DNA of 8,339 nt from an uncultured Erysipelotrichaceae bacterium (lineage in GTDB: Bacteria; Bacillota_I; Bacilli_A; RFN20; CAG-826), in the NCBI GenBank assembly GCA_902799855.1, contig CADCCA010000066.1:1-8339 (forward strand), given 5' to 3'. The notes under the pieces were generated by a model. That model did no database searches, was not told where the DNA came from, and saw only the letters and a list, made by a program, of their open reading frames with translations. Numbering within the stretch: position 1 is the stretch's first letter; every line of letters begins with the position of its first letter. The position numbers and the translations under genes were made by a program. This document shows positions 1-8,339 of the stretch, piece by piece.

Positions 1-36
1 CTAGCTAATTCCAATCAGTTTCATAAATCTCCATAT

Positions 37-79
37 GGTAGAGGTGGGGGCTAACTTGTCCTCTGCCCTTGCCTCTACT
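37..79 (+). other. Strong intergenic hairpin, identity unknown
   Basis: Positions 37-51 pair with 65-79 in a 15-bp stem that includes four G-U pairs when read as plus-strand RNA, closing a 13-nt pyrimidine-rich loop (52-64). No T-tract follows, so it is not an ordinary intrinsic terminator. The left arm AGAGG (40-44) can also pair with CCTCT in the loop (60-64), which gives an alternative fold. It may be the end structure of an upstream transcript or a leader element of the gene starting at 185. I recognise no known riboswitch family. Confidence 0.4.
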
Positions 80-184
80 TCTCATCAAAATAGCGAAGAC
101 GGTATCGAATAATGATGCCTCGCGCGTCTTTAAAAGCGCTTTTCTTCTTAAATAATAAAACCTCATTAGAAAGGGATGACACCT
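80..184 (+). other. Upstream region of the surface-protein gene with RBS
   Basis: This stretch holds a perfect palindrome AAAAGCGCTTTT (132-143) followed by TCTTCTT, which could be a weak terminator or a protein-binding site. AATAAT (108-113) is a possible -10 box, but there is no convincing -35. AGAAAGGG at 168-175 is a good ribosome binding site for the ATG at 185 (9-nt spacing). It abuts the in-frame ATG at 176 with no spacing, so the downstream start is preferred. Confidence 0.45.
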
Positions 185-3100
185 ATGTCAAAATTCTTAC
201 TAACGCTTGTTGCAGCGGCAATTGCATCGTCATCGATTGGTGCTATTAATGTTGCTAAAAACAAAGCGCAAAACGAAACGAACAATCAATATGAAGTAGT
301 CAATCTCAAAGAAAAAGTCATGAGAAGATATTATGATGAACTAGATGACTTCAAAAAGAATGAGATTGAATATGAAGATTTCGAAGATGGATATTACAGT
401 TCTGGTATGTCTATCAAAGATTATACAGAAACTGTAAAAGAATCGACCAATATTGCTAGTAGTTCTAGCGGTTCTCGCGGTAGTGGCGGCAAAGTCGATG
501 ATGTTCGCCACATCATTTCAAACTATAGAAAAATGAATGGTACCGGCTCTCGTCCTTCATTAAGTAGCGTAATTCCACAATTTGATAAAGAAGAATTATC
601 TATCAATTGGGATCAGAATCATGAAATGTGCTTTTCTTTGGAAGAAGGCAGAAATCCAGATATACCAGTCTATTACGAAAGGGAAGAACTTGAAACAGAA
701 GAAGAAAAAGCAAATTATATCCCTTGGGAAAACGCAGATTTGCGTGTTGGCGATATTGTTTGGGACACAATTAGCAGTGTCGAACAAGACCCAATCAACA
801 TCGTTACACACATGGCATTAATTTCTAATACTTGCAAAAGAGGATATACTGAAGACAATTACGGAAACAGAAAATACTTCAACTTCGTAGAGACTATTGA
901 AGCTTTCTCAAGTGGTGTTCGTTTTGGTTTTCTTGATGACGACAGAATTTTAGAGTGTGGAACAGTTGTTCTTCGCGTTGGTCTCTATATGCAAAACGTA
1001 AGAGACAGCGCCGTTAATTTCATGCTTCATCAGTATGGTGAACCATACGATCTTGACCTTACTAATAATTATCCGGTGCCAGATAGTAGCAGAAATAAAT
1101 GGTTCTGCACTCAGTTAGTTTTTGCGGCTTATTACAATGCCGGCCTTGACATAACTGAAGTTATATCTGATTCTTTTGATCCAGTTGTTGATGATAATGG
1201 CATAATTAGAACTCAAATTGTTGCAGATCACATTGCTAGAGGTCGCTGGACCTACTCTGTCGGTTTTTATGATGCTTATTTGGAACAATTTGTTTCTGTG
1301 TCAAAATACAGCAACCAATTTGAATTGACAAATTTATCTGGAAAGCCTTACAACGTTTCCTACGCCGGATCACTCTATTTTTGGAATGACGCCTTAAAAA
1401 ATTACAAAACCATTTGTAAAAAGAACGTTTCAGTCCCAGACAACAGCACTGTAGCGGTCAATATCTCAAACAACCTTCTTGCTAATACAGCTGCACTTTA
1501 TGCAAAAGATGGAACAGCGATGTACACAACTCTCGCTCATCACTTTGCGGACTGTTGGTTTAATAGTTATATCCAAACAACAGTTGATGATTTTGAAATA
1601 ACTCACAACGAAAGTAACTATTCTATTAAAATCCGTAATAGAGGCACTTCAACTGAAACATATTATTATCCATCAGCTTTAATGACTTATAACGATGCAA
1701 CAAATTGGAATTTCTCAAACGGCATCACCAAAAAGTCAATCCAAATTGCTGCCGGTAATACCGCAACTGTCACAGTAAACAAAAAAGGCAACAATATGTT
1801 TGCTCCATTTGTTTTAAAGAACAGCACAGAAGATAACAATGCGGCACTTGTGAGAATTACTCCAAACAAAAACAATTACCACATGGTGTCTCCAACATAC
1901 ATCGACACAACTCCAAGCAATCCTGGAGGCGGTCAAGGTGGAGGCGGTCAAGGTGGTAATACACAAACCTACCCAACAATCACCGCTGAAGGTCAATTAT
2001 ATTTCTCTATCGACAGCAGTCGTATTAGAGAATTCGGACATGGCCAACCAGATCTTTATATTCTTGATATGTATGTTCCATATGCCAGTATTCCTGTGAG
2101 TTCTTATGAAACAGTGGAAGTAACTTACTATGAAGATCTAAGTGATGGTGCATTCTTCAATGGACAAATAACTGCTTGTTCAGAAGGCTTCTCAGTCTAT
2201 CTTTTCACAAACAATCTTTACGCAGAAGGTGGCATTAATGTCCACTTTACTTATCAAGCCGAACTAATTTTAGAATCAATTTCATTATCAGGTGACTATC
2301 AAACAGATTTCTTTGTTGGCCAACCAGCCAATACAGATAACATCGTAGTTACTGCACACTATACATGTGGTTATTCTAGAGTCATTGATAGTTCAGACAG
2401 CAACTTAGGTATCTATGTTCTTTATTATGATTCAACTCGTCCGTGCATTGCTTTAGTGGCTGTTATGTACACAGAAAACGGAATCTCTTTCACAGAATAT
2501 TACAATATTGTGGTTAGATATCCTAATATCACTTCGATGTCATTTGAAGGCGATTTCCAAACAGATTTCTATGTGGGAGATGAATTCAACTATGATGGCT
2601 TAGAAGTCTATGCAACTTTAGAAACAGGAGAAGTTGTTGAAGCAGACAGTTTTTATGTTGATTCCAGTGCTGTCGATATGACAACTGAAGGATTCTACGA
2701 AGTCTATGTCACAGCCTATGTGAATGGCATCGCTTACACTGATTATTATTTTGTCTCTGTTGAAAACCTTGTTTTAGAATCAATTTCATTATCAGGCAAT
2801 CAAGCAACAGTTTTCGAAGTTGGCGACACATTCAACTATGACGGTTTAGTTGTTACCGCTCATTATGCTAATGGTGATACTAGAGTAGTTACTGATTACA
2901 CTGTCGTGACTCGCACAATTGACATGAATACCGCTGGAACATACAACGTAAAAGTTCGTTATACAGAAAACGACATTACTGTTAACGCAACATATCAAAT
3001 TACTGTTGTGTACAATGGTCCAACATTAACAGGTATTACATTATCTGGCGATTATCAAACATCTTTCCAAGTTGGCGAACAATTTAATCATGATGGATTA

Positions 3101-3592
3101 GTTGTGACTGCTCATTATAGTGATGGCACATCTAGAGTCGTCACAAATTACGCCGTAATGCCTATGAACTACAATCCAAATAGACCTGGAACTTACAATG
3201 TCATAATCAACTATAGTGATAATGGTGGATTTGCTATTACATCTTATAGTGTTACTGTAGAATTCTTGTTTACACCAGTTTTCTTAGAATCAATTACATT
3301 ATCCGGTAATTACAGAACAAATTTTAGAATGGGTCAAGCACTTGACTTTACTGGTTTAATCGTTACAGCGAATTATACCGATGGTAGTTCTGAAGAAGTG
3401 ACCAACTACACAATTGATACAAGTGATGTCGACGTTTTCTTCCCAGGCACCTATCAAGTTAGAGTCCTATACACTTTCAAAGGCGTAACTGCTGTTGCGA
3501 TTATCACAATTCGTATATCGAGATTTATAAAAGATACTGATTTACCAACTCTCCCAGATGATCCAATCAAACCATTCCCAGGAAAGTTCTAG
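185..3592 (+). CDS. Secreted permuted papain-like hydrolase with Ig-repeat stalk
   Basis: A predicted secreted protein of 1135 residues (1138 from the ATG at 176). Residues 1 to about 22 form a signal peptide with a single Lys and an Ala/Ser/Leu-rich core. A charged acidic region follows. Residues about 180-357 resemble the YiiX/YaeF permuted NlpC/P60 fold (peptidase C92 type): GDIV at 189, His209 in THMALI, Glu239, the YGEPYD motif near 284-289, and Cys308 in WFCTQLV. His before Cys is the permuted order. Such enzymes hydrolyse cell-wall peptides, amides or lipids; the substrate here is unknown. Residues 360-570 look like beta-sandwich modules. A GGGQGGGGQGG linker (581-591) and an unassigned beta domain come next, then five Big_3-type Ig repeats at about 695-778, 782-859, 862-942, 947-1025 and 1033-1112, each opening with a version of LESISLSGDYQTDF and a VG-x-x-F-N-Y-D-G-L motif. 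The protein ends in a Pro-rich tail with no LPXTG motif, membrane anchor or GW/SLH domain. It appears monocistronic with its own terminator. The hydrolase call is moderately sure and the Ig repeats are sure. Confidence 0.85.
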   Translation: MSKFLLTLVAAAIASSSIGAINVAKNKAQNETNNQYEVVNLKEKVMRRYYDELDDFKKNEIEYEDFEDGYYSSGMSIKDYTETVKESTNIASSSSGSRGSGGKVDDVRHIISNYRKMNGTGSRPSLSSVIPQFDKEELSINWDQNHEMCFSLEEGRNPDIPVYYEREELETEEEKANYIPWENADLRVGDIVWDTISSVEQDPINIVTHMALISNTCKRGYTEDNYGNRKYFNFVETIEAFSSGVRFGFLDDDRILECGTVVLRVGLYMQNVRDSAVNFMLHQYGEPYDLDLTNNYPVPDSSRNKWFCTQLVFAAYYNAGLDITEVISDSFDPVVDDNGIIRTQIVADHIARGRWTYSVGFYDAYLEQFVSVSKYSNQFELTNLSGKPYNVSYAGSLYFWNDALKNYKTICKKNVSVPDNSTVAVNISNNLLANTAALYAKDGTAMYTTLAHHFADCWFNSYIQTTVDDFEITHNESNYSIKIRNRGTSTETYYYPSALMTYNDATNWNFSNGITKKSIQIAAGNTATVTVNKKGNNMFAPFVLKNSTEDNNAALVRITPNKNNYHMVSPTYIDTTPSNPGGGQGGGGQGGNTQTYPTITAEGQLYFSIDSSRIREFGHGQPDLYILDMYVPYASIPVSSYETVEVTYYEDLSDGAFFNGQITACSEGFSVYLFTNNLYAEGGINVHFTYQAELILESISLSGDYQTDFFVGQPANTDNIVVTAHYTCGYSRVIDSSDSNLGIYVLYYDSTRPCIALVAVMYTENGISFTEYYNIVVRYPNITSMSFEGDFQTDFYVGDEFNYDGLEVYATLETGEVVEADSFYVDSSAVDMTTEGFYEVYVTAYVNGIAYTDYYFVSVENLVLESISLSGNQATVFEVGDTFNYDGLVVTAHYANGDTRVVTDYTVVTRTIDMNTAGTYNVKVRYTENDITVNATYQITVVYNGPTLTGITLSGDYQTSFQVGEQFNHDGLVVTAHYSDGTSRVVTNYAVMPMNYNPNRPGTYNVIINYSDNGGFAITSYSVTVEFLFTPVFLESITLSGNYRTNFRMGQALDFTGLIVTANYTDGSSEEVTNYTIDTSDVDVFFPGTYQVRVLYTFKGVTAVAIITIRISRFIKDTDLPTLPDDPIKPFPGKF
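1925..1957 (+). repeat. 15-bp tandem repeat encoding the Gly/Gln linker
   Basis: GGAGGCGGTCAAGGT occurs twice in perfect tandem (1925-1939 and 1940-1954), followed by GGT. It is in frame and encodes GGGQG units. The repeat joins the N-terminal enzymatic half to the C-terminal Ig half, so copy-number change would alter linker length without a frameshift. Confidence 0.8.
2268..2796 (+). repeat. Identical 25-bp segments in two Ig-repeat units
   Basis: The 25 bases at 2268-2292 are identical to 2772-2796, encoding the opening LESISLSG of Ig repeats 1 and 3. A near copy lies at about 3286-3304 (repeat 5). The distance between the identical copies is 504 bp, a multiple of three, so recombination between them would remove two Ig modules in frame. 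Confidence 0.75.
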
Positions 3593-3628
3593 CTACTAAT
3601 TCCTGAAATAGATATTCATTACAAACGG

Positions 3629-3670
3629 GAAAGCCCCAAATCCTTCAAGGATAAGGGGTTTTCTTTATTT
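3629..3670 (+). terminator. Intrinsic terminator of the surface-protein gene
   Basis: The left arm (AAGCCCC 3631-3637 and TCCTT 3641-3645) pairs with the right arm (AAGGA 3647-3651 and GGGG 3655-3658) around a small internal loop, followed by TTTTCTTTATTT (3659-3670). It lies 37 bp after the stop codon. The T-tract also occupies the -35 position of the rlmD promoter. Confidence 0.85.
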
Positions 3671-3681
3671 GCTCGCACATT

Positions 3682-3693
3682 TATAATGTTGCT
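3682..3693 (+). promoter_or_regulatory. rlmD promoter -10 box, probable leaderless start
   Basis: A perfect TATAAT lies at 3682-3687. The ATG follows after exactly 6 nt (3694), where transcription would be expected to begin. No Shine-Dalgarno sequence is present, only TTATAATGTTGCT. The -35 is weak and lies in the terminator T-tract (TTTTCT, 3659-3664, 17-bp spacing). Leaderless translation is inferred. Confidence 0.6.
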
Positions 3694-5016
3694 ATGCAAA
3701 GAATAGTGCATGGTACAGCAATTGATTTATCAAGTGAAGGCAAAGGTGTCGTTAAAAATCGTAACGATATCATCTTTGTAGATGGTCTTTTCCCTGGAGA
3801 AGAAGCAGATATCGAAATACTTTATCAACGTGCGGGAGTGTATTTTGGTAAAGTTAAAAAACTCTATAAATTATCAAAAGAAAGAATCCAACCAAAGTGC
3901 AAAATATGCACCTCGTGTGGTGGATGTCAGTATCAACAACTCGACTATAAAGCCCAATTAAAATATAAAACCAAAAGAGTAAAAGAAGCCCTTACAAGAA
4001 TCGCTAAAGTCAAATGTGAAGTATTGCCTTGTATAGGCGCTAGTAACCCATATAACTACCGCAATAAAATCCAAGTGCCTTTCGTTAAAGATAAAAAAGG
4101 TGTCGTTAAGTTTGGTTTCTATAAAGAAAACAGTCATATCATCATGCCAATTAAAGAATGCGCGATTGAAGATAAGAAAGCTGCACCAATATTATGGGAT
4201 ATCAAACTTCTTTTAGAAGATATGGATATTCCTATCTATAACGAAGACAGTGGTAAAGGTATTTTGAGATACGTATTAATAAGAACTAGTTATCATTACG
4301 ATGAACTAATGGTGGTCCTAGTTACCACTCAAATGAATTTCCCTGGTCAAAGAAACTTCATCAATGAATTAGTAAATAGACATCCTGAAATCACCACAAT
4401 CGTAGAAAATGTTAATTCTAGAAAAACTAATGTCATATTAGGTGATAAAGAAAAAGTCCTTTATGGTCCGGGTCATATTAAAGATGATATTTTAGGTCTT
4501 TCTTTTGAAATATCTGCCTCATCCTTCTTCCAAATCAATCCAGAACAAGTGGAAAAACTATACACGCATGCCTTGGATTTAATTGATTTCTCTAAAAAGG
4601 AAATTGTTTTAGATGCCTATAGTGGTGTTGGAACGATTGGTTTAATTGCCGCTAGAAACGCTAAAAAAGTAATAAGTGTTGAAATAAATAGAAGCGCGCA
4701 TAAAAACGCGATTGAGAATGCCAAAAGAAATAATGTTGATAATATTGAATTTATCTGTGATGATGCTGGTAAATTCATATCCAACTATAAGGGAGACATC
4801 GATGTTTTAATCATGGATCCACCAAGAAGCGGTAGTGATGAAACATTCTTATCAACAATCATGAATAAAGGCATTAAGAAAATTGTCTATGTTTCATGTA
4901 ATCCAGAAACACTCGCTAGAGATATTCAATATTTGTCACACTCGCTAGAGATATTCAATATTTGTCCAATATGTATGAAGTTAACTACGTTCAGCCTGTC
5001 GATATGTTCCCAATGA
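3694..5016 (+). CDS. rlmD: 23S rRNA uracil-C5 methyltransferase, C-terminus frameshifted
   Basis: A TrmA/RumA-family SAM-dependent enzyme that makes 5-methyluridine in 23S rRNA (U1939 in E. coli RlmD; Gram-positive relatives may also modify U747). Residues 1-60 form a TRAM RNA-binding domain. Cys69, Cys75, Cys78 and Cys156 match the 4Fe-4S cluster ligands. The methyltransferase domain shows FFQINPEQ (near 278), the SAM loop DAYSGVG (307-313), DPPRSG (375-380) and the nucleophile Cys402 in [11 protein letters not shown]. From residue 415 the frame departs from the family because of a 29-bp tandem duplication, ending in an unrelated tail at a TGA (440 aa in total). The usual DMFPxTxHVE motif, whose Glu is the general base in E. 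coli RumA (Glu424), is missing from this product. It survives in another frame to 5057, and removing one repeat copy restores a normal 444-aa protein. As written, the enzyme is probably inactive or impaired. The ATG follows a TATAAT box by 6 nt, with no ribosome binding site. Family assignment is firm; exact target base is inferred. Confidence 0.9.
4909..4966 (+). repeat. Perfect 29-bp tandem duplication in rlmD
   Basis: Bases 4909-4937 are repeated exactly and without a gap at 4938-4966. The unit encodes [10 protein letters not shown] just after the catalytic Cys. Because 29 is not a multiple of three, the second copy shifts the downstream frame. Slipped-strand loss of one copy would restore the family-typical C-terminus. 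An assembly error cannot be excluded from sequence alone. Confidence 0.95.
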
Positions 5017-5057
5017 CTGCGCACGTGGAGACTATAGTAGGGCTATATCGAAAATAA
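4967..5057 (+). pseudogene. rlmD: Displaced out-of-frame 3' end of rlmD
   Basis: Read in the frame set by the second repeat copy (codons aat 4968-4970 onward), this stretch encodes NMYEVNY then [14 protein letters not shown] and a GLYRK end, stopping at TAA 5055-5057. This is the conserved C-terminal strand and general-base motif of the RumA family, with Glu at 5028-5030. It has no stops or decay, suggesting the duplication is recent, reversible or an artefact. Confidence 0.9.
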
Positions 5058-5058
5058 G

Positions 5059-5117
5059 TGGCAAGTTTTAGAATTTTATATTGCCAAAATGGCAAGAAAT
5101 AAATTATAATATTGCCA
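5059..5117 (+). promoter_or_regulatory. Symmetric four-half-site operator with embedded promoter
   Basis: Four perfect 6-bp half-sites occur: TGGCAA 5059-5064, TTGCCA 5081-5086, TGGCAA 5090-5095 and TTGCCA 5112-5117. All are symmetric about position 5088; the inner pair forms TTGCCAAAATGGCAA and the outer pair lies 22 bp outside on each side. The second half-site doubles as a -35 box. After an 18-bp spacer comes TATAAT (5105-5110), and the last half-site overlaps the ATG at 5117, 6 nt after the -10. No Shine-Dalgarno sequence exists. The HTH domain of the first gene is the likely ligand (inference). Confidence 0.7.
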
Positions 5118-5575
5118 TGGAACTAAAAGAAACAAGAAAACAATTAGGACTTACACAGCCCGAAGCAGCGGCTATTTTAAACATACCTTTTAGAACATAC
5201 TGCCGCTATGAAGATGAAGAACAATATAAAGGGACATTTAAATATAACCAAATGCTTACTATCTTGAATGATTATGCTAGTAAAGCAGTTTTATCCCTCG
5301 ATTTGATTAAAAATGCAGTATCTAGTGTTTGCCAAAAATATGATGTTAGCGCAGTTTATCTTTTTGGCAGTTACGCTAAAAGCAAAGCAAGAAGTGATAG
5401 CGATATCGATTTAATGATTGTTTCAGGTATTGAAGGCATTGAATATTATCAATTGTTAAATGAACTAGAAACCAAACTTAAGAAAAAGATTGATTTGCTA
5501 AGATTAGAAACAGCAATCCAAAATGTTAAATTAATGAATGAGATTTTGAAGGACGGAATAAAAATCTATGGATAA
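5117..5575 (+). CDS. mntA: HTH-MNT antitoxin: XRE-type HTH plus minimal nucleotidyltransferase
   Basis: A 152-residue protein. Residues 1-55 are an XRE-like helix-turn-helix (RKQLGLTQPEAAAILNIPFRTYCRYE). Residues about 68-152 are a MNT-type nucleotidyltransferase with the G-S-X10-D-X-D motif (Gly84, Ser85, Asp96, Asp98) and a third carboxylate Asp126 in KKIDLL. In characterised MntA-HepT pairs the MNT protein transfers AMP to a tyrosine of the HEPN toxin and so neutralises it; all catalytic residues for this are present. The fused HTH suggests autoregulation at the half-site array that overlaps its own promoter and start codon. An in-frame TTG at 5081 would add 12 residues, but it lies in the -35 element and would lack the promoter upstream of it, so the ATG is preferred. 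The stop overlaps the next gene's start by 8 nt, implying translational coupling. mntA is used here in the toxin-antitoxin sense, not for the manganese transporter. Confidence 0.85.
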   Translation: MELKETRKQLGLTQPEAAAILNIPFRTYCRYEDEEQYKGTFKYNQMLTILNDYASKAVLSLDLIKNAVSSVCQKYDVSAVYLFGSYAKSKARSDSDIDLMIVSGIEGIEYYQLLNELETKLKKKIDLLRLETAIQNVKLMNEILKDGIKIYG

Positions 5576-6236
5576 CGTTAAAAATGATTTTTATTATGTC
5601 AAAAGATTACTGAGAAGCATAGAGGTTTCATCTAGATATCTTAAGGACAAAAGCATGGATGATTTAATCAACGATGGTTTTCTATGCGACGCGATAGAGA
5701 ATAGATTCACGAAAATCGCAGAAGATGCTTCAAATCTATCAAAAGACTTTAAAAAGAATCTTTCATCTATTCCTTGGGACGGCATAGCTTCGATAAGAAA
5801 TAGAGTTTGCCACGATTATGACGTAGTTGATTTTGCAATTCTTTATAAAACCATCAAAGTCAATTTTCCTTCTTTTAGAAAGAACCTACTTGAAGTTGCT
5901 ACTGTTCATAAAATGAATCTCTATCCAGATGCTTTTGAACTTATTGAGAATGGAAACAAAAAAGTAGAAATGAGACTCAATGATGAAAAAAGACAAAAAG
6001 TTACTATTGGAGATCTCATTATTTTTACAAACACTGAAACAAAAGAAGAAATAATAGTGGAAGTTACTGATTTAAAAACTTTTAAATCGTTCGATGAACT
6101 TTATTCTTCGTACGAGAAAACCGCAATTGGCTACAAGAAAGACGAAGTAGCAAATCCAAATGACATGCTTAATTACTATTCCAAAGAACAAATAGATAAA
6201 TATGGTGCTTTGGCTATAGAAATCAAACCATATTGA
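5568..6236 (+). CDS. hepT: HepT-like HEPN toxin fused to an ASCH domain
   Basis: A 222-residue protein. Residues 1-108 match the HepT/DUF86 HEPN family: IPWDGI (68-73) followed by R77-N-R-V-C-H82-D-Y84, the complete R-X4-H-X-Y motif. Arg and His are the RNase residues, and Tyr84 is the expected AMPylation target of the MNT partner. The HEPN domain is complete, ending in the usual FPSFRKNL. Residues 113-222 form an ASCH domain: NLYPDAFELIENGNKKVEMR contains the G-x-K-x-x-E-x-R signature (Gly129, Lys131, Glu134, Arg136), then the GDLIIF strand and a closing LAIEIKPY. ASCH domains are PUA-like and bind RNA or modified nucleosides; in E. coli YqfB, as I recall, the Lys and a Thr three residues on are catalytic, and here that Thr is Glu134, so YqfB-type ac4C hydrolysis is doubtful. 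The fusion may steer the RNase to a particular RNA (inference). The start overlaps mntA by 8 nt, with GAAGGA at 5548-5553 as a weak RBS. Stop is TGA. No terminator is evident. Confidence 0.85.
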   Translation: MDNVKNDFYYVKRLLRSIEVSSRYLKDKSMDDLINDGFLCDAIENRFTKIAEDASNLSKDFKKNLSSIPWDGIASIRNRVCHDYDVVDFAILYKTIKVNFPSFRKNLLEVATVHKMNLYPDAFELIENGNKKVEMRLNDEKRQKVTIGDLIIFTNTETKEEIIVEVTDLKTFKSFDELYSSYEKTAIGYKKDEVANPNDMLNYYSKEQIDKYGALAIEIKPY

Positions 6237-6340
6237 TATATCCCTGTTGTAATATTGATTCCTGGGGCACGGTTATCATCTACGATATTATTAAGAATAT
6301 TTATTCAGGAACATTAAAGATTGATGCTAAAGAAGAATAG
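6233..6340 (+). pseudogene. Short orphan open frame, possible gene remnant
   Basis: A frame open from 6200 to TAG at 6338-6340 reads IDSWGTVIIYDIIKNI then YSGTLKIDAKEE, which looks protein-like but matches no family I recognise. The only start is a TTG at 6233 without a ribosome binding site, overlapping the HEPN gene end. It could be the tail of a decayed gene displaced near the toxin-antitoxin operon, or chance. Confidence 0.2.
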
Positions 6341-6342
6341 TG

Positions 6343-6356
6343 TTGATTTAAATCAA
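6343..6356 (+). promoter_or_regulatory. Perfect FNR-type palindrome TTGATTTAAATCAA
   Basis: This 14-bp perfect palindrome fits the Crp/Fnr-family box TTGAT-N4-ATCAA exactly. Its centre (6349.5) lies about 40 bp upstream of the expected transcription start (about 6389-6391), the class II activator position. The lipoprotein promoter has an extended -10 and no -35, consistent with activator dependence. Chance in AT-rich DNA is possible. Confidence 0.4.
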
Positions 6357-6373
6357 ATTAAAAACTGCTTTTG

Positions 6374-6398
6374 TGATATAATGAATATAAATTAGGTG
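6374..6398 (+). promoter_or_regulatory. Extended -10 promoter and RBS of the lipoprotein gene
   Basis: TGATATAAT (6374-6382) is a perfect extended -10 element. AGGTG at 6394-6398 is a Shine-Dalgarno sequence 6 nt before the ATG at 6405. It fixes that ATG as the start and rules out the GTG at 6396, which lies inside the Shine-Dalgarno. Confidence 0.65.
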
Positions 6399-6404
6399 TT
6401 TTAT

Positions 6405-7109
6405 ATGAAAAGGTTATCTTTAGTTTTTGTTTTAGGCGCAAGCGCTTTTTTACTTGTTGGATGTGATGGCTATAAGAAAATAAGTGAAGAGGAGTTTAAC
6501 TCCTATTTCAGCGCGGAAAAAGTTAGTGCGGCGAAAGAAAAATTCGCGGCAATTAATTGTTATTATTATGAAATAATTCAGACCACAAAAGAATTTGATT
6601 ATGACTTATGGCGTTACAACGATACTGATTATTACTATCAATATGCTGTCGCTACCGTAGAGGGCAAAAAAGATACTTCTCACGATTTATATCTTGGCTC
6701 ATCTAACGTTGATGAATGTAAGTGGTATGGTGTTAGTTCCAGCGGCGAAAACAAAGTGACGATAGGCCAAGAAGCCTTCAATCAATATGATGAACAAAAA
6801 GGATACGAAAGAAATACCGTCACAAGGGCAATGGACGATCCTTTCTACTATGCGAAAGAATTTTCTGGGAACGTCAACGAGAAAAAGTACTATGTCAGTG
6901 GCAACAAATTAAAAATAACGTTCAAAAGTTCAGGCGAAGACCAAGAAGAGTCGTCTGGATACGGAATTTTTGATAGCAAAACACTATTAGTGGATTCTTT
7001 TGTAATCAAGATTAAAACCGCTGAAGCGTCTGGTACAGTTAAATACAAGTTTACTTACAACAAAAGCTTTAAACACAAAACACCCCAAGACATCGGTTAT
7101 AAAGAATAA
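6405..7109 (+). CDS. Predicted lipoprotein of unknown function
   Basis: A 234-residue protein beginning with a type II signal peptide: MKRLS, a hydrophobic core (VFVLGASAFLL) and the lipobox L17-V-G-C20. After lipidation at Cys20 the mature protein would sit on the outer face of the membrane. The rest is soluble, rich in Tyr, Lys, Glu and Ser, with predicted beta-strand character in the second half (KKYYVSGNKLKITF, GTVKYKFTYNKS). I see no catalytic motif or known domain and do not recognise the family. It has its own promoter, with a possible Fnr-type site upstream, so it is probably monocistronic and separate from the toxin-antitoxin operon. Lipoprotein status is confident; function is unknown. 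Confidence 0.8.
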   Translation: MKRLSLVFVLGASAFLLVGCDGYKKISEEEFNSYFSAEKVSAAKEKFAAINCYYYEIIQTTKEFDYDLWRYNDTDYYYQYAVATVEGKKDTSHDLYLGSSNVDECKWYGVSSSGENKVTIGQEAFNQYDEQKGYERNTVTRAMDDPFYYAKEFSGNVNEKKYYVSGNKLKITFKSSGEDQEESSGYGIFDSKTLLVDSFVIKIKTAEASGTVKYKFTYNKSFKHKTPQDIGYKE

Positions 7110-7125
7110 AATAGAAATCTTCTTT

Positions 7126-7153
7126 TTCACATATGTCTTCATGTACATATAAT
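7126..7153 (+). promoter_or_regulatory. Strong consensus promoter downstream of the lipoprotein gene
   Basis: TTCACA (7126-7131, 5 of 6 to the -35 consensus) and TATAAT (7148-7153, perfect) are 16 bp apart. The spacer region is rich in palindromes (ACATATGT 7129-7136, ATGTACAT 7141-7148), possibly an operator. No ordinary gene lies downstream before the terminator at 7251. Confidence 0.5.
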
Positions 7154-7159
7154 CTTTTG

Positions 7160-7275
7160 TGTGATTATATCGAGGTACACTCTTTGGGTAGCCCATAAAA
7201 GCGTTGAAGACACTGAAAAACTCATTGATATGTGGCTTCAAGAAGAAAAAGGAAGGCATCGCCTTCCCTTTTAAT
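7160..7275 (+). ncRNA. Candidate small RNA or 37-aa leaderless ORF
   Basis: Between the promoter (-10 ending 7153) and the hairpin terminator at 7251-7267 lies a unit of about 110 nt. It could be a small RNA ending in GGAAGGC-ATC-GCCTTCC plus CTTTT. The same stretch contains an open frame from GTG 7161, 7 nt after the -10, to TAA 7272-7274, with the segment AHKSVEDTEKLIDMWLQEEK looking protein-like. The stop falls after the terminator stem, which is unusual for a real gene. It may instead be a gene remnant. Confidence 0.3.
7240..7275 (-). terminator. Bidirectional terminator between convergent genes
   Basis: GGAAGGC (7251-7257) and GCCTTCC (7261-7267) form a perfect 7-bp stem with a 3-nt loop. 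On the minus strand it is followed by TTTTTCTTCTT (complement of 7240-7250), giving a strong terminator 18 bp past the oxidoreductase stop. On the plus strand the tail CTTTTAATT is weaker but usable. Confidence 0.85.
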
Positions 7276-7284
7276 TCAATGTAG

Positions 7285-8235
7285 CTATTTATCTTTTGAG
7301 TGTCTTTCACCGATTTGATATTCTTCGTTATGTTCAAACATTTCTAAGACTGTAATTGGATCATCACCAGTTAGTTCTTTGAAGTCATTGGTGTGGACTG
7401 CCATCTTACCTTCTCTAATCGCTTGGGCAAATGTTACCATGCCATCACTTGAGAAAGGAGCTTCACTATCTTTCTTAAAGACACCATCTGTTGTTCTTGG
7501 AACGCCCATCGCATCAAAGATTTGATAATTTTCTTCGTCGGTTAATTCTTTGTAAGAAACATTGTTACCTGTGGCTTTATTACCATATTCAATGAATTTA
7601 GAAATGGTCATTAGTTCTTTACCGTTGATATCTAATGTGGCCTGATGATATCTTTCTTCAAATCCTCTATGGAGGGCATAGGCCATTGCTTTGGCGCAGT
7701 CTTTTCTAGAGATGTACGCCATTAAGCCATCACCTTGGCTGTTTTTAAGCACTCCATCAAGATGGACATAGGTGAAGTAATTAGTAATCATTGCTTCAGC
7801 ATATTGGCTATTTCTTAAGAAGATGTAATCTAATCCCACTAATTGAATATATCTTTCAGTGTAAATGTGGTCCTTCTTTTCCACACTTGGATTAGTTTCA
7901 TCTCCAGCATTAACTAAAGATGTATAAACAATCTTTTTAACACCAACCTTTTTAGCGGCATCCACGACATTCTTTTGAGCGGCTTGTCTTTTTGGGCCGA
8001 CGAACGGCATAGAAATTAAACCTAAAATGTCCGCACCTCTAAAGGCTTCTTCTAACCCTTCATAATAATTGAAATCAGCGACACGTGTATCAATACCCAT
8101 CGCTTTATATTTTTCTAATGCTTTTGCAGAATAGGCGACAAAAATAAGGTTTTCCTTCTTCTCAAGTTTTAATAAGATTTCCGCGGCAATAGAACCAAGG
8201 TTACCATCAACCCCAGTCAATAAAATTTTACTCAT
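7285..8235 (-). CDS. NmrA/QorB-like NAD(P)-binding oxidoreductase
   Basis: A 316-residue atypical short-chain dehydrogenase of the NmrA / quinone oxidoreductase 2 (E. coli QorB/YtfG) type. The N-terminal Rossmann motif is ILLTGVDGNLGS, with Gly8, Gly11 and Gly14 as the dinucleotide-binding glycines. The next blocks follow the family order: VADFNYYEGLEEAF (second strand end), ADILGLISMP, QKNVVDAAKKVGVKKIVYTSL, and LRNSQYAEA, the family's LRNGWYxEN region. The classical SDR Tyr-x-x-x-Lys is absent, as usual for this group. Relatives reduce quinones, azo dyes or similar electrophiles with NADPH, or act as redox sensors; the substrate here is not evident. The C-terminus has about 30 residues beyond QorB length. 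The start is at the Rossmann strand and well fixed, but no Shine-Dalgarno is near it; TACGAT (8242-8247, minus strand) lies 6 nt upstream, a poor -10 at the spacing of the leaderless starts elsewhere in the window. It converges with the lipoprotein gene. Confidence 0.85.
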   Translation of the reverse strand: MSKILLTGVDGNLGSIAAEILLKLEKKENLIFVAYSAKALEKYKAMGIDTRVADFNYYEGLEEAFRGADILGLISMPFVGPKRQAAQKNVVDAAKKVGVKKIVYTSLVNAGDETNPSVEKKDHIYTERYIQLVGLDYIFLRNSQYAEAMITNYFTYVHLDGVLKNSQGDGLMAYISRKDCAKAMAYALHRGFEERYHQATLDINGKELMTISKFIEYGNKATGNNVSYKELTDEENYQIFDAMGVPRTTDGVFKKDSEAPFSSDGMVTFAQAIREGKMAVHTNDFKELTGDDPITVLEMFEHNEEYQIGERHSKDK

Positions 8236-8246
8236 ACTATAATCGT

Positions 8247-8298
8247 ATTATTCAGTTAAGCCTAGTTTGATGACTGAATAATTTCTCCTTTCTAGGCT
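8247..8298. repeat. Two interlocked inverted repeats in the oxidoreductase promoter region
   Basis: ATTATTCAGT (8247-8256) pairs with ACTGAATAAT (8273-8282), a perfect 10-bp inverted repeat with a 16-nt spacer. AGCCTAG (8259-8265) pairs with CTAGGCT (8292-8298), a perfect 7-bp repeat. The order A-B-A'-B' interlocks them. They lie between the oxidoreductase start and a divergent TATAAT box, so operators for a regulator are the simplest reading. Confidence 0.7.
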
Positions 8299-8339
8299 AT
8301 AATTTCTATATGCTGTGTACCTGTCTCATACTATTGCCA
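8298..8339 (+). promoter_or_regulatory. TATAAT box and possible start of a truncated divergent gene
   Basis: TATAAT (8298-8303) is followed 6 nt later by ATG (8310-8312), the same spacing as at rlmD and the MNT gene. The open frame MLCTCLILLP runs off the window at 8339. Thirty bases are too few to identify it. A divergent regulator gene next to an NmrA-type oxidoreductase would be common, but nothing here shows it. Confidence 0.3.

Follow-up and report, generated by a model that had tools for sequence, protein, structure and literature searches.

A Predicted, Horizontally Exchanged Type VII-like Toxin-Antitoxin Module with an ASCH Domain Fused to Its HEPN Toxin in an Uncultured Erysipelotrichaceae Bacterium

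Introduction

Contig CADCCA010000066.1 of an uncultured Erysipelotrichaceae bacterium (assembly GCA_902799855.1) carries, in the 8,339-nucleotide (nt) stretch analyzed here (positions 1 to 8,339 of the forward strand; hereafter the window), two overlapping genes that raise the question of why a predicted HepT-like RNase toxin should end in an ASCH domain. HEPN/MNT is the predicted most abundant prokaryotic toxin-antitoxin system; in its MntA-HepT members, the antitoxin MntA adds three adenosine monophosphates (AMPs) to the tyrosine of the Rx4HxY motif, blocking the HepT RNase, while the trigger of AMPylation or of its reversal was left open (PMC7641770, cited, like the other PubMed Central (PMC) articles below, from excerpts). 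The module in the window is a real, conserved, and apparently lineage-specific variant of this known kind. It is probably a mobile, autorepressed, type VII-like toxin-antitoxin module in which the ASCH domain recognizes RNA or a nucleoside and thereby steers or triggers the RNase.

Domain Architecture and Catalytic Motifs

The original prediction, made from the DNA letters alone, described a nucleotidyltransferase fused to a helix-turn-helix (HTH) and overlapping a HEPN partner with an ASCH tail, and this architecture was recovered throughout. The upstream open reading frame (ORF) (5117-5575, 152 amino acids (aa)) encodes a predicted antitoxin, adenylyltransferase and repressor in one, as judged from Pfam, the aligned catalytic residues, the structure model, and fold matches; it overlaps by 8 nt the ORF of the predicted RNase toxin (5568-6236, 222 aa), assigned by Pfam, homologues, and model, both genes and all their domains lying on the forward strand. 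The MNT domain (residues 58-152, 5288-5572) matches Pfam Polbeta (63.7 bits, cut-off 26.9) and NTP_transf_2 (45.6 bits, cut-off 21), and its catalytic residues are complete, with GS-x10-DxD from residue 84 (residues 84-98, 5366-5410) and D126 (5492-5494). The HTH domain in front of it (residues 1-57, 5117-5287) scores below the Pfam cut-off (HTH_3, 17.7 bits versus 23) but fits the model, with helices at residues 2-9, 14-21, and 25-33, and has middling fold matches. In the toxin, the HepT-like HEPN domain (residues 1-111, 5568-5900; PF01934, 49.7 bits, cut-off 23.5, residues 15-107) has an intact R77-x4-H82-x-Y84 motif (5796-5819), and the ASCH domain (residues 112-222, 5901-6233; PF04266, 34.0 bits, cut-off 21.2, residues 117-184) joins its last helix almost without a linker and retains the signature G129-x-K131-x-x-E134-x-R136 (5952-5975).

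All four domains are backed by confident structure models and fold matches, HepT and MntA chains being matched by the HEPN and MNT parts and the PUA-like ASCH fold by the predicted model of residues 112-222. An R-x4-H-x-Y toxin, a GS-x10-DxD antitoxin, and an MNT gene upstream of and adjoining the toxin gene are what characterize type VII MntA-HepT systems, and all three are found here, together with all the residues named for AMPylation in MntA-HepT. The order of MNT gene and then HEPN gene is common to the window and loci L001, L003, L004, and L005. Domains, homologues, and folds together give good support to reading the pair as an MntA-HepT variant whose toxin has an ASCH tail. A profile result against ASCH at the C-terminus, which the original prediction named as a refutation, did not occur, since residues 112-222 are ASCH.

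Distribution and Origin of the Fusion

A search with the HEPN-ASCH protein gave 143 homologues at E<=1e-3, and a profile search gave 158. Among the best 120 of the former, 99 were at least 210 aa long with both HEPN and ASCH motifs, five were at least 210 aa long without one motif as written, and 16 were shorter. A non-exhaustive scan of genome contigs with two short peptide patterns found at least five loci, all in metagenome-assembled genomes labelled Bacilli or Bacillales. In the order of genome G001 (279 genomes), some match at E<=1e-3 occurred in 148 genomes and the full fusion in five (G001-G005, the G002 match abutting a contig end and starting at residue 20); the other matches listed covered one domain, or more only across stop codons, many of the single-domain ones being free-standing ASCH proteins or plain HepTs. 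One full-length fusion match, G001, was found in a class sample of 395 genomes (E<=1e-25) and likewise in a phylum sample of 392 genomes (E<=1e-18), these samples overlapping each other and the order of G001.

Because 99 of the 120 listed homologues carry both motifs and five genomes of the order carry the full fusion, the junction of HEPN and ASCH is no chance join, a doubt that the original prediction had tied to the absence of the fusion from related genomes. The HEPN tree, in which the fused domains stand on one branch side against 20 plain ones (SH-aLRT 100), also speaks against such a join. The fused ASCH domains likewise stand on one side against 26 others (SH-aLRT 87, not starred). Both trees, which come from short searches on few columns, are consistent with one origin of the fusion and are not proof of it.

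The ordinariness of the antitoxin, a point beyond the original prediction, helps to locate what is new. At the 21 plain-HepT loci inspected in the order (20 of the best-scoring and L011), the MNT gene lies upstream in every case and has an HTH part in 20, judged by length and reading, and in many of the HTH-MNT genes listed the match to the A2 profile spans all or nearly all of residues 1-152. Since HTH-MNT beside plain HepT is usual in the order, the HTH-MNT fusion is ruled out as the novelty, and the new part is the ASCH tail. One of these loci, L052, has a tandem pair of MNT genes (3-332 and 411-908) upstream of a single plain HepT.

The same ASCH family occurs in the order in other company. 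It is fused to a GNAT acetyltransferase in L033 (1483-2346 (-), by Pfam) and in L032 (1480-2349 (-), by likeness), and to dihydrofolate reductase in L036 (1489-2364 (-), by Pfam); judged from these matches, ASCH is a locally common, promiscuous domain. In L018 (170-1863) and L020 (681-2374 (-)), an HTH-DUF3990 gene is followed by an ASCH-tailed partner in a two-gene operon, which may be a second ASCH-tailed toxin-antitoxin-like pair in the order; DUF3990 is ADP-ribosyltransferase-like by a weak PARP match in a Pfam scan of L018.

Conservation of the Toxin Domains

In alignment A1, composed of the window toxin and 54 hand-picked members of the 120 homologues listed, R77, H82, Y84, and E165 are present in all 55 sequences, K131 in 54, and E134 and R136 in 53 each; on the antitoxin side, G84, S85, D96, D98, and D126 are present in 33 of 33 aligned members. 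HEPN is the better conserved domain (mean pairwise identity in A1 0.72 versus 0.57 for ASCH), and the ASCH signature is retained in the fused toxins much as in free-standing relatives. For two close pairs, ratios of nonsynonymous to synonymous divergence (dN/dS), which rest on few substitutions, were 0.10 and 0.12 for ASCH and 0.10 and 0.15 for HEPN by NG86, and 0.12 and 0.17 for ASCH and 0.11 for HEPN by YN00; in these two pairs, ASCH is under purifying selection and is not evolving freely. A separate homologue, P0121 (197 aa), has as its C-terminal half an ASCH domain 60% identical to that of the window, and its N-terminal part, judged by eye, looks like a winged HTH.

Horizontal Exchange and Toxin Loss

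The module has been exchanged horizontally between lineages. Compared with L001, the upstream gene rlmD of the window is about 80% identical, whereas from a recombination border near 5009, which the original prediction had not noticed, to near the toxin stop the two are 90-100% identical per 60-nt block (exchanged segment 5009-6236). Synonymous divergence (dS, NG86) is 1.15 in rlmD versus 0.11 in HTH-MNT, 0.23 in HEPN, and 0.30 in ASCH. L001 has a remnant of the rlmD 3' end directly after the toxin stop, with a second copy of 76 bp at 7402-7477; L058 has an rlmD-type tail after its toxin stub, and P0059 reads into such a tail. In L003, L004, and L005, the module has other neighbors. From these sequences, the 3' end of rlmD seems to have been the site at which, in this lineage, the module was inserted or exchanged. 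No recombinase was seen beside the module in the ORF lists, with profile searching for one confined to the window. The rlmD 3' end of the window is itself frameshifted by a 29-bp tandem duplication (4909-4966), its normal end lying in another frame, which is either a real lesion or an assembly error. In L003 (155-332, 2040-2217, and 3755-3887) and L005 (1472-1540 and 2911-2978), the module is flanked on either side by direct repeats of about 70-180 nt; a 135-nt repeat query had three matches in the whole genome of G003, eight in G005, and none in G001, and the repeats may be either a cassette border or a dispersed repeat.

A phage or plasmid origin was considered and rejected: searches of viral contigs gave 23 and 14 candidate stretches with no relative confirmed, and six plasmid records and one phage record were matched, none reaching 80% query coverage and the phage record by a plain-HepT-like match only. 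A Mycoplasmopsis plasmid gene annotated as a Cof-type HAD hydrolase (NZ_LR215033.1, 19005-19298, hit H1) matches the ASCH part with 40.8% identity.

Among the ten closest HTH-MNT genes of the order (E<=1e-69, the next being 8e-50), five come from the genomes that carry a full toxin (in G002, the pair and the toxin sit on separate contigs), and the other five, L058-L062, lack one. Toxin remnants comprise 30 residues in L058, 31 in L062, and, by eye, a 12-residue C-terminal stub in L061, and L059 and L060 have no remnant at E<=0.01. The HTH and the catalytic motifs are intact in L058, L059, and L060 despite the loss of the toxin. A costly toxin would be expected to be lost while its antitoxin is kept, and this pattern is clear in these three of the five loci.

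Tandem Operators and Promoter

Upstream of the antitoxin gene, the original prediction had also passed over a regulatory region (5059-5117) with two exact copies, 31 bp apart, of the predicted operator TGGCAA-N16-TTGCCA on the forward strand, the first at 5059-5086 and the second at 5090-5117, where the A of the start codon is the final base of the last half-site; none of 200 shuffles contained the same. In all 11 loci compared (the window, L001, L003, L004, L005, L012, and L058-L062), the operators cover the promoter and start codon, and each of the four half-sites recurs with no more than one mismatch and at a position that is fixed to within one base, an outcome reached by none of 2000 shuffles per locus, the shuffles preserving base composition only and several of the loci being close kin. 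The flanking DNA is visibly distinct among a window/L001/L012/L058 set, an L003/L005/L062 set, L004, L059, L060, and L061. Within the operators lies a promoter-like TTGCCA-18-TATAAT (5081-5110, forward strand; 11 of 12 consensus positions), for which the argument is position and not count, shuffles averaging more promoter-like sites than the region itself. As only 6 nt separate the -10 box from the ATG, the transcript may be leaderless. From these conserved sites, we infer that the HTH-MNT operon may be autorepressed through the tandem operators.

Proposed Mechanism and Role of the ASCH Domain

In the mechanism proposed, the HTH-MNT protein would repress its own operon by binding the two tandem operators that cover the promoter and start codon, while its MNT domain would AMPylate Tyr84 in HEPN and keep the RNase silent, as the intact motifs and the MntA-HepT precedent (PMC7641770) suggest. 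A drop in antitoxin or loss of the AMP mark would then allow HEPN to cut RNA, and the ASCH domain, whose conserved pocket would hold RNA or a (modified) nucleoside, would select the RNA target or set the condition for activation. This role for ASCH, argued by analogy, is favored because the fold binds a nucleoside in YqfB (PMC6972931) and RNA in ZmASCH (PMC5615036), because the signature is kept, and because other conflict systems use PUA-like domains as readers or are proposed to do so (PMC7641849, PMC10853773, PMC12839542).

Several observations weigh against this reading. The proteins fall short of the NCBIfam equivalog cut-offs of the NF047752/NF047751 pair (MntA 57.9 versus 60 bits, HepT 23.2 versus 60), for which reason the module is termed "type VII-like" and not an equivalog. 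Two of the five toxin-less loci look like plain decay, the antitoxin of L061 having DxN and that of L062 lacking its ATG, and the few substitutions behind the dN/dS values count here as well. Moreover, the ASCH signature is gone and the domain degenerate or shortened in P0113 and P0118 (2 of 55 aligned), ASCH is also degenerate or shortened in P0114 (outside A1), and in several short homologues HEPN is retained while ASCH is truncated or frameshifted, some of these perhaps being contig ends or assembly errors; ASCH is therefore not indispensable everywhere.

These members without the signature also lend some weight to an alternative that we regard as unlikely, though worth serious attention, in which the module is an ordinary MntA-HepT system whose ASCH tail serves stability, dimerization, or localization only, with no specificity for a ligand or RNA. 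Because ASCH is common in the order and fused there to unrelated enzymes, the fusion alone says little. However, GxKxxExR in 53-54 of 55 aligned members, as in free-standing relatives, and purifying selection on ASCH similar to that on HEPN argue against a purely passive tail. A different form of signal input, which we hold to be improbable, is that ASCH would respond to a signal in the form of a nucleoside or RNA, or even to the AMP on Tyr84, and control de-AMPylation or unmasking of the HEPN RNase, making activation independent of antitoxin decay. If ASCH does act as a signal input, the DUF3990-HTH operon of L018 and L020 would make it a reusable trigger module.

Slightly less probable still is the phage-defense role envisaged in the original prediction, for which the context found gives almost no support. 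An anti-phage abortive-infection module, in which ASCH would read phage-modified bases and release the RNase, would suit the actual or proposed reading of modified bases by ASCH/PUA-like domains (PMC7641849, PMC10853773, PMC12839542, PMC13160076), the exchange of the module between lineages, and the weak hits of the MNT domain against the PADLOC candidate models PDC-S09 (the best, 54.7 bits) and PDC-M05A, which are the only hint of defense. Yet the toxin matches no PADLOC family, no recognized defense gene lies beside the module in the window, and the viral contigs contributed no confirmed relative. The idea that ASCH is a second enzyme, such as a YqfB-like N4-acylcytidine amidohydrolase or a ZmASCH-like RNase, is very improbable, since Lys21-x-x-Thr24-x-Arg26 of YqfB, inactive as Thr24Ala (PMC6972931), corresponds here to K131-x-x-E134-x-R136, with Glu134 in place of the nucleophile. 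PH0355 and PF0455, whose structures come closest, are both uncharacterized. Glu74 of YqfB is seemingly also absent.

Flanking Genes

After the module come a lipoprotein-like ORF of 234 aa without a significant family (6405-7109) and an NmrA-like NAD(P)-binding protein (7285-8235 (-)). Further upstream, positions 176-3592 encode a probable surface protein of 1138 aa with Big_3 and other Ig-like domains, in whose N-terminal part DUF1287 and a YaeF-like (permuted papain) family are matched very weakly. No tRNA or Rfam RNA was found in the window.

Comparison with Known Systems

A HEPN-ASCH (HepT/DUF86-ASCH) fusion was not found in searches of open-licence PMC papers. In their main texts, the 2013 HEPN census has no occurrence of ASCH, and PMC7641849 none of HEPN, MNT, or HepT. 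The nearest characterized systems are the MntA-HepT pairs such as Shewanella SO_3166/SO_3165 (PMC7641770), which likewise have an MNT gene upstream of and overlapping the HEPN gene, intact GS-x10-DxD and R-x4-H-x-Y motifs, and the HepT and MntA folds matched here. The module of the window differs from them in the HTH fused to MNT, the ASCH fused to HEPN, the tandem operators, and its sub-threshold NCBIfam scores. Closer to home, the HTH-MNT and plain HepT pairs of the order (L038-L057) share the antitoxin architecture and the overlapping gene order in 20 of 21 loci, but their toxin stops at the end of HEPN with no ASCH, and the fused HEPN domains form a group of their own.

The ASCH part has its own relatives. 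Free-standing PH0355-like proteins (2z0t, 1s04) and their relatives in the order have the same signature and fold over residues 112-222, but they have no toxin attached and are uncharacterized. The amidohydrolase YqfB and the RNase ZmASCH (PMC6972931, PMC5615036) are alike in the ASCH fold and in the Lys and Arg of the motif, YqfB differing in its nucleophile Thr24, where the window toxin has Glu134. PIN-GNAT-EVE, HTH-ASCH, and related predicted operons (PMC7641849) also link a PUA-like domain to predicted toxins and an HTH, although their toxin and antitoxin families differ from HEPN and MNT. The MntA-HepT kind was already known and HTH-MNT with plain HepT is usual in the order; what is new is the ASCH tail on the toxin. 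A nucleoside/RNA-binding fold joined directly to the toxin, apparently once, and kept under selection would offer a way into the question of what activates such toxins, through comparison of the fused toxin with an ASCH-less version of it and with plain HepTs from the order, and would extend to HEPN the link already seen between toxins or nucleases and PUA-like reader domains.
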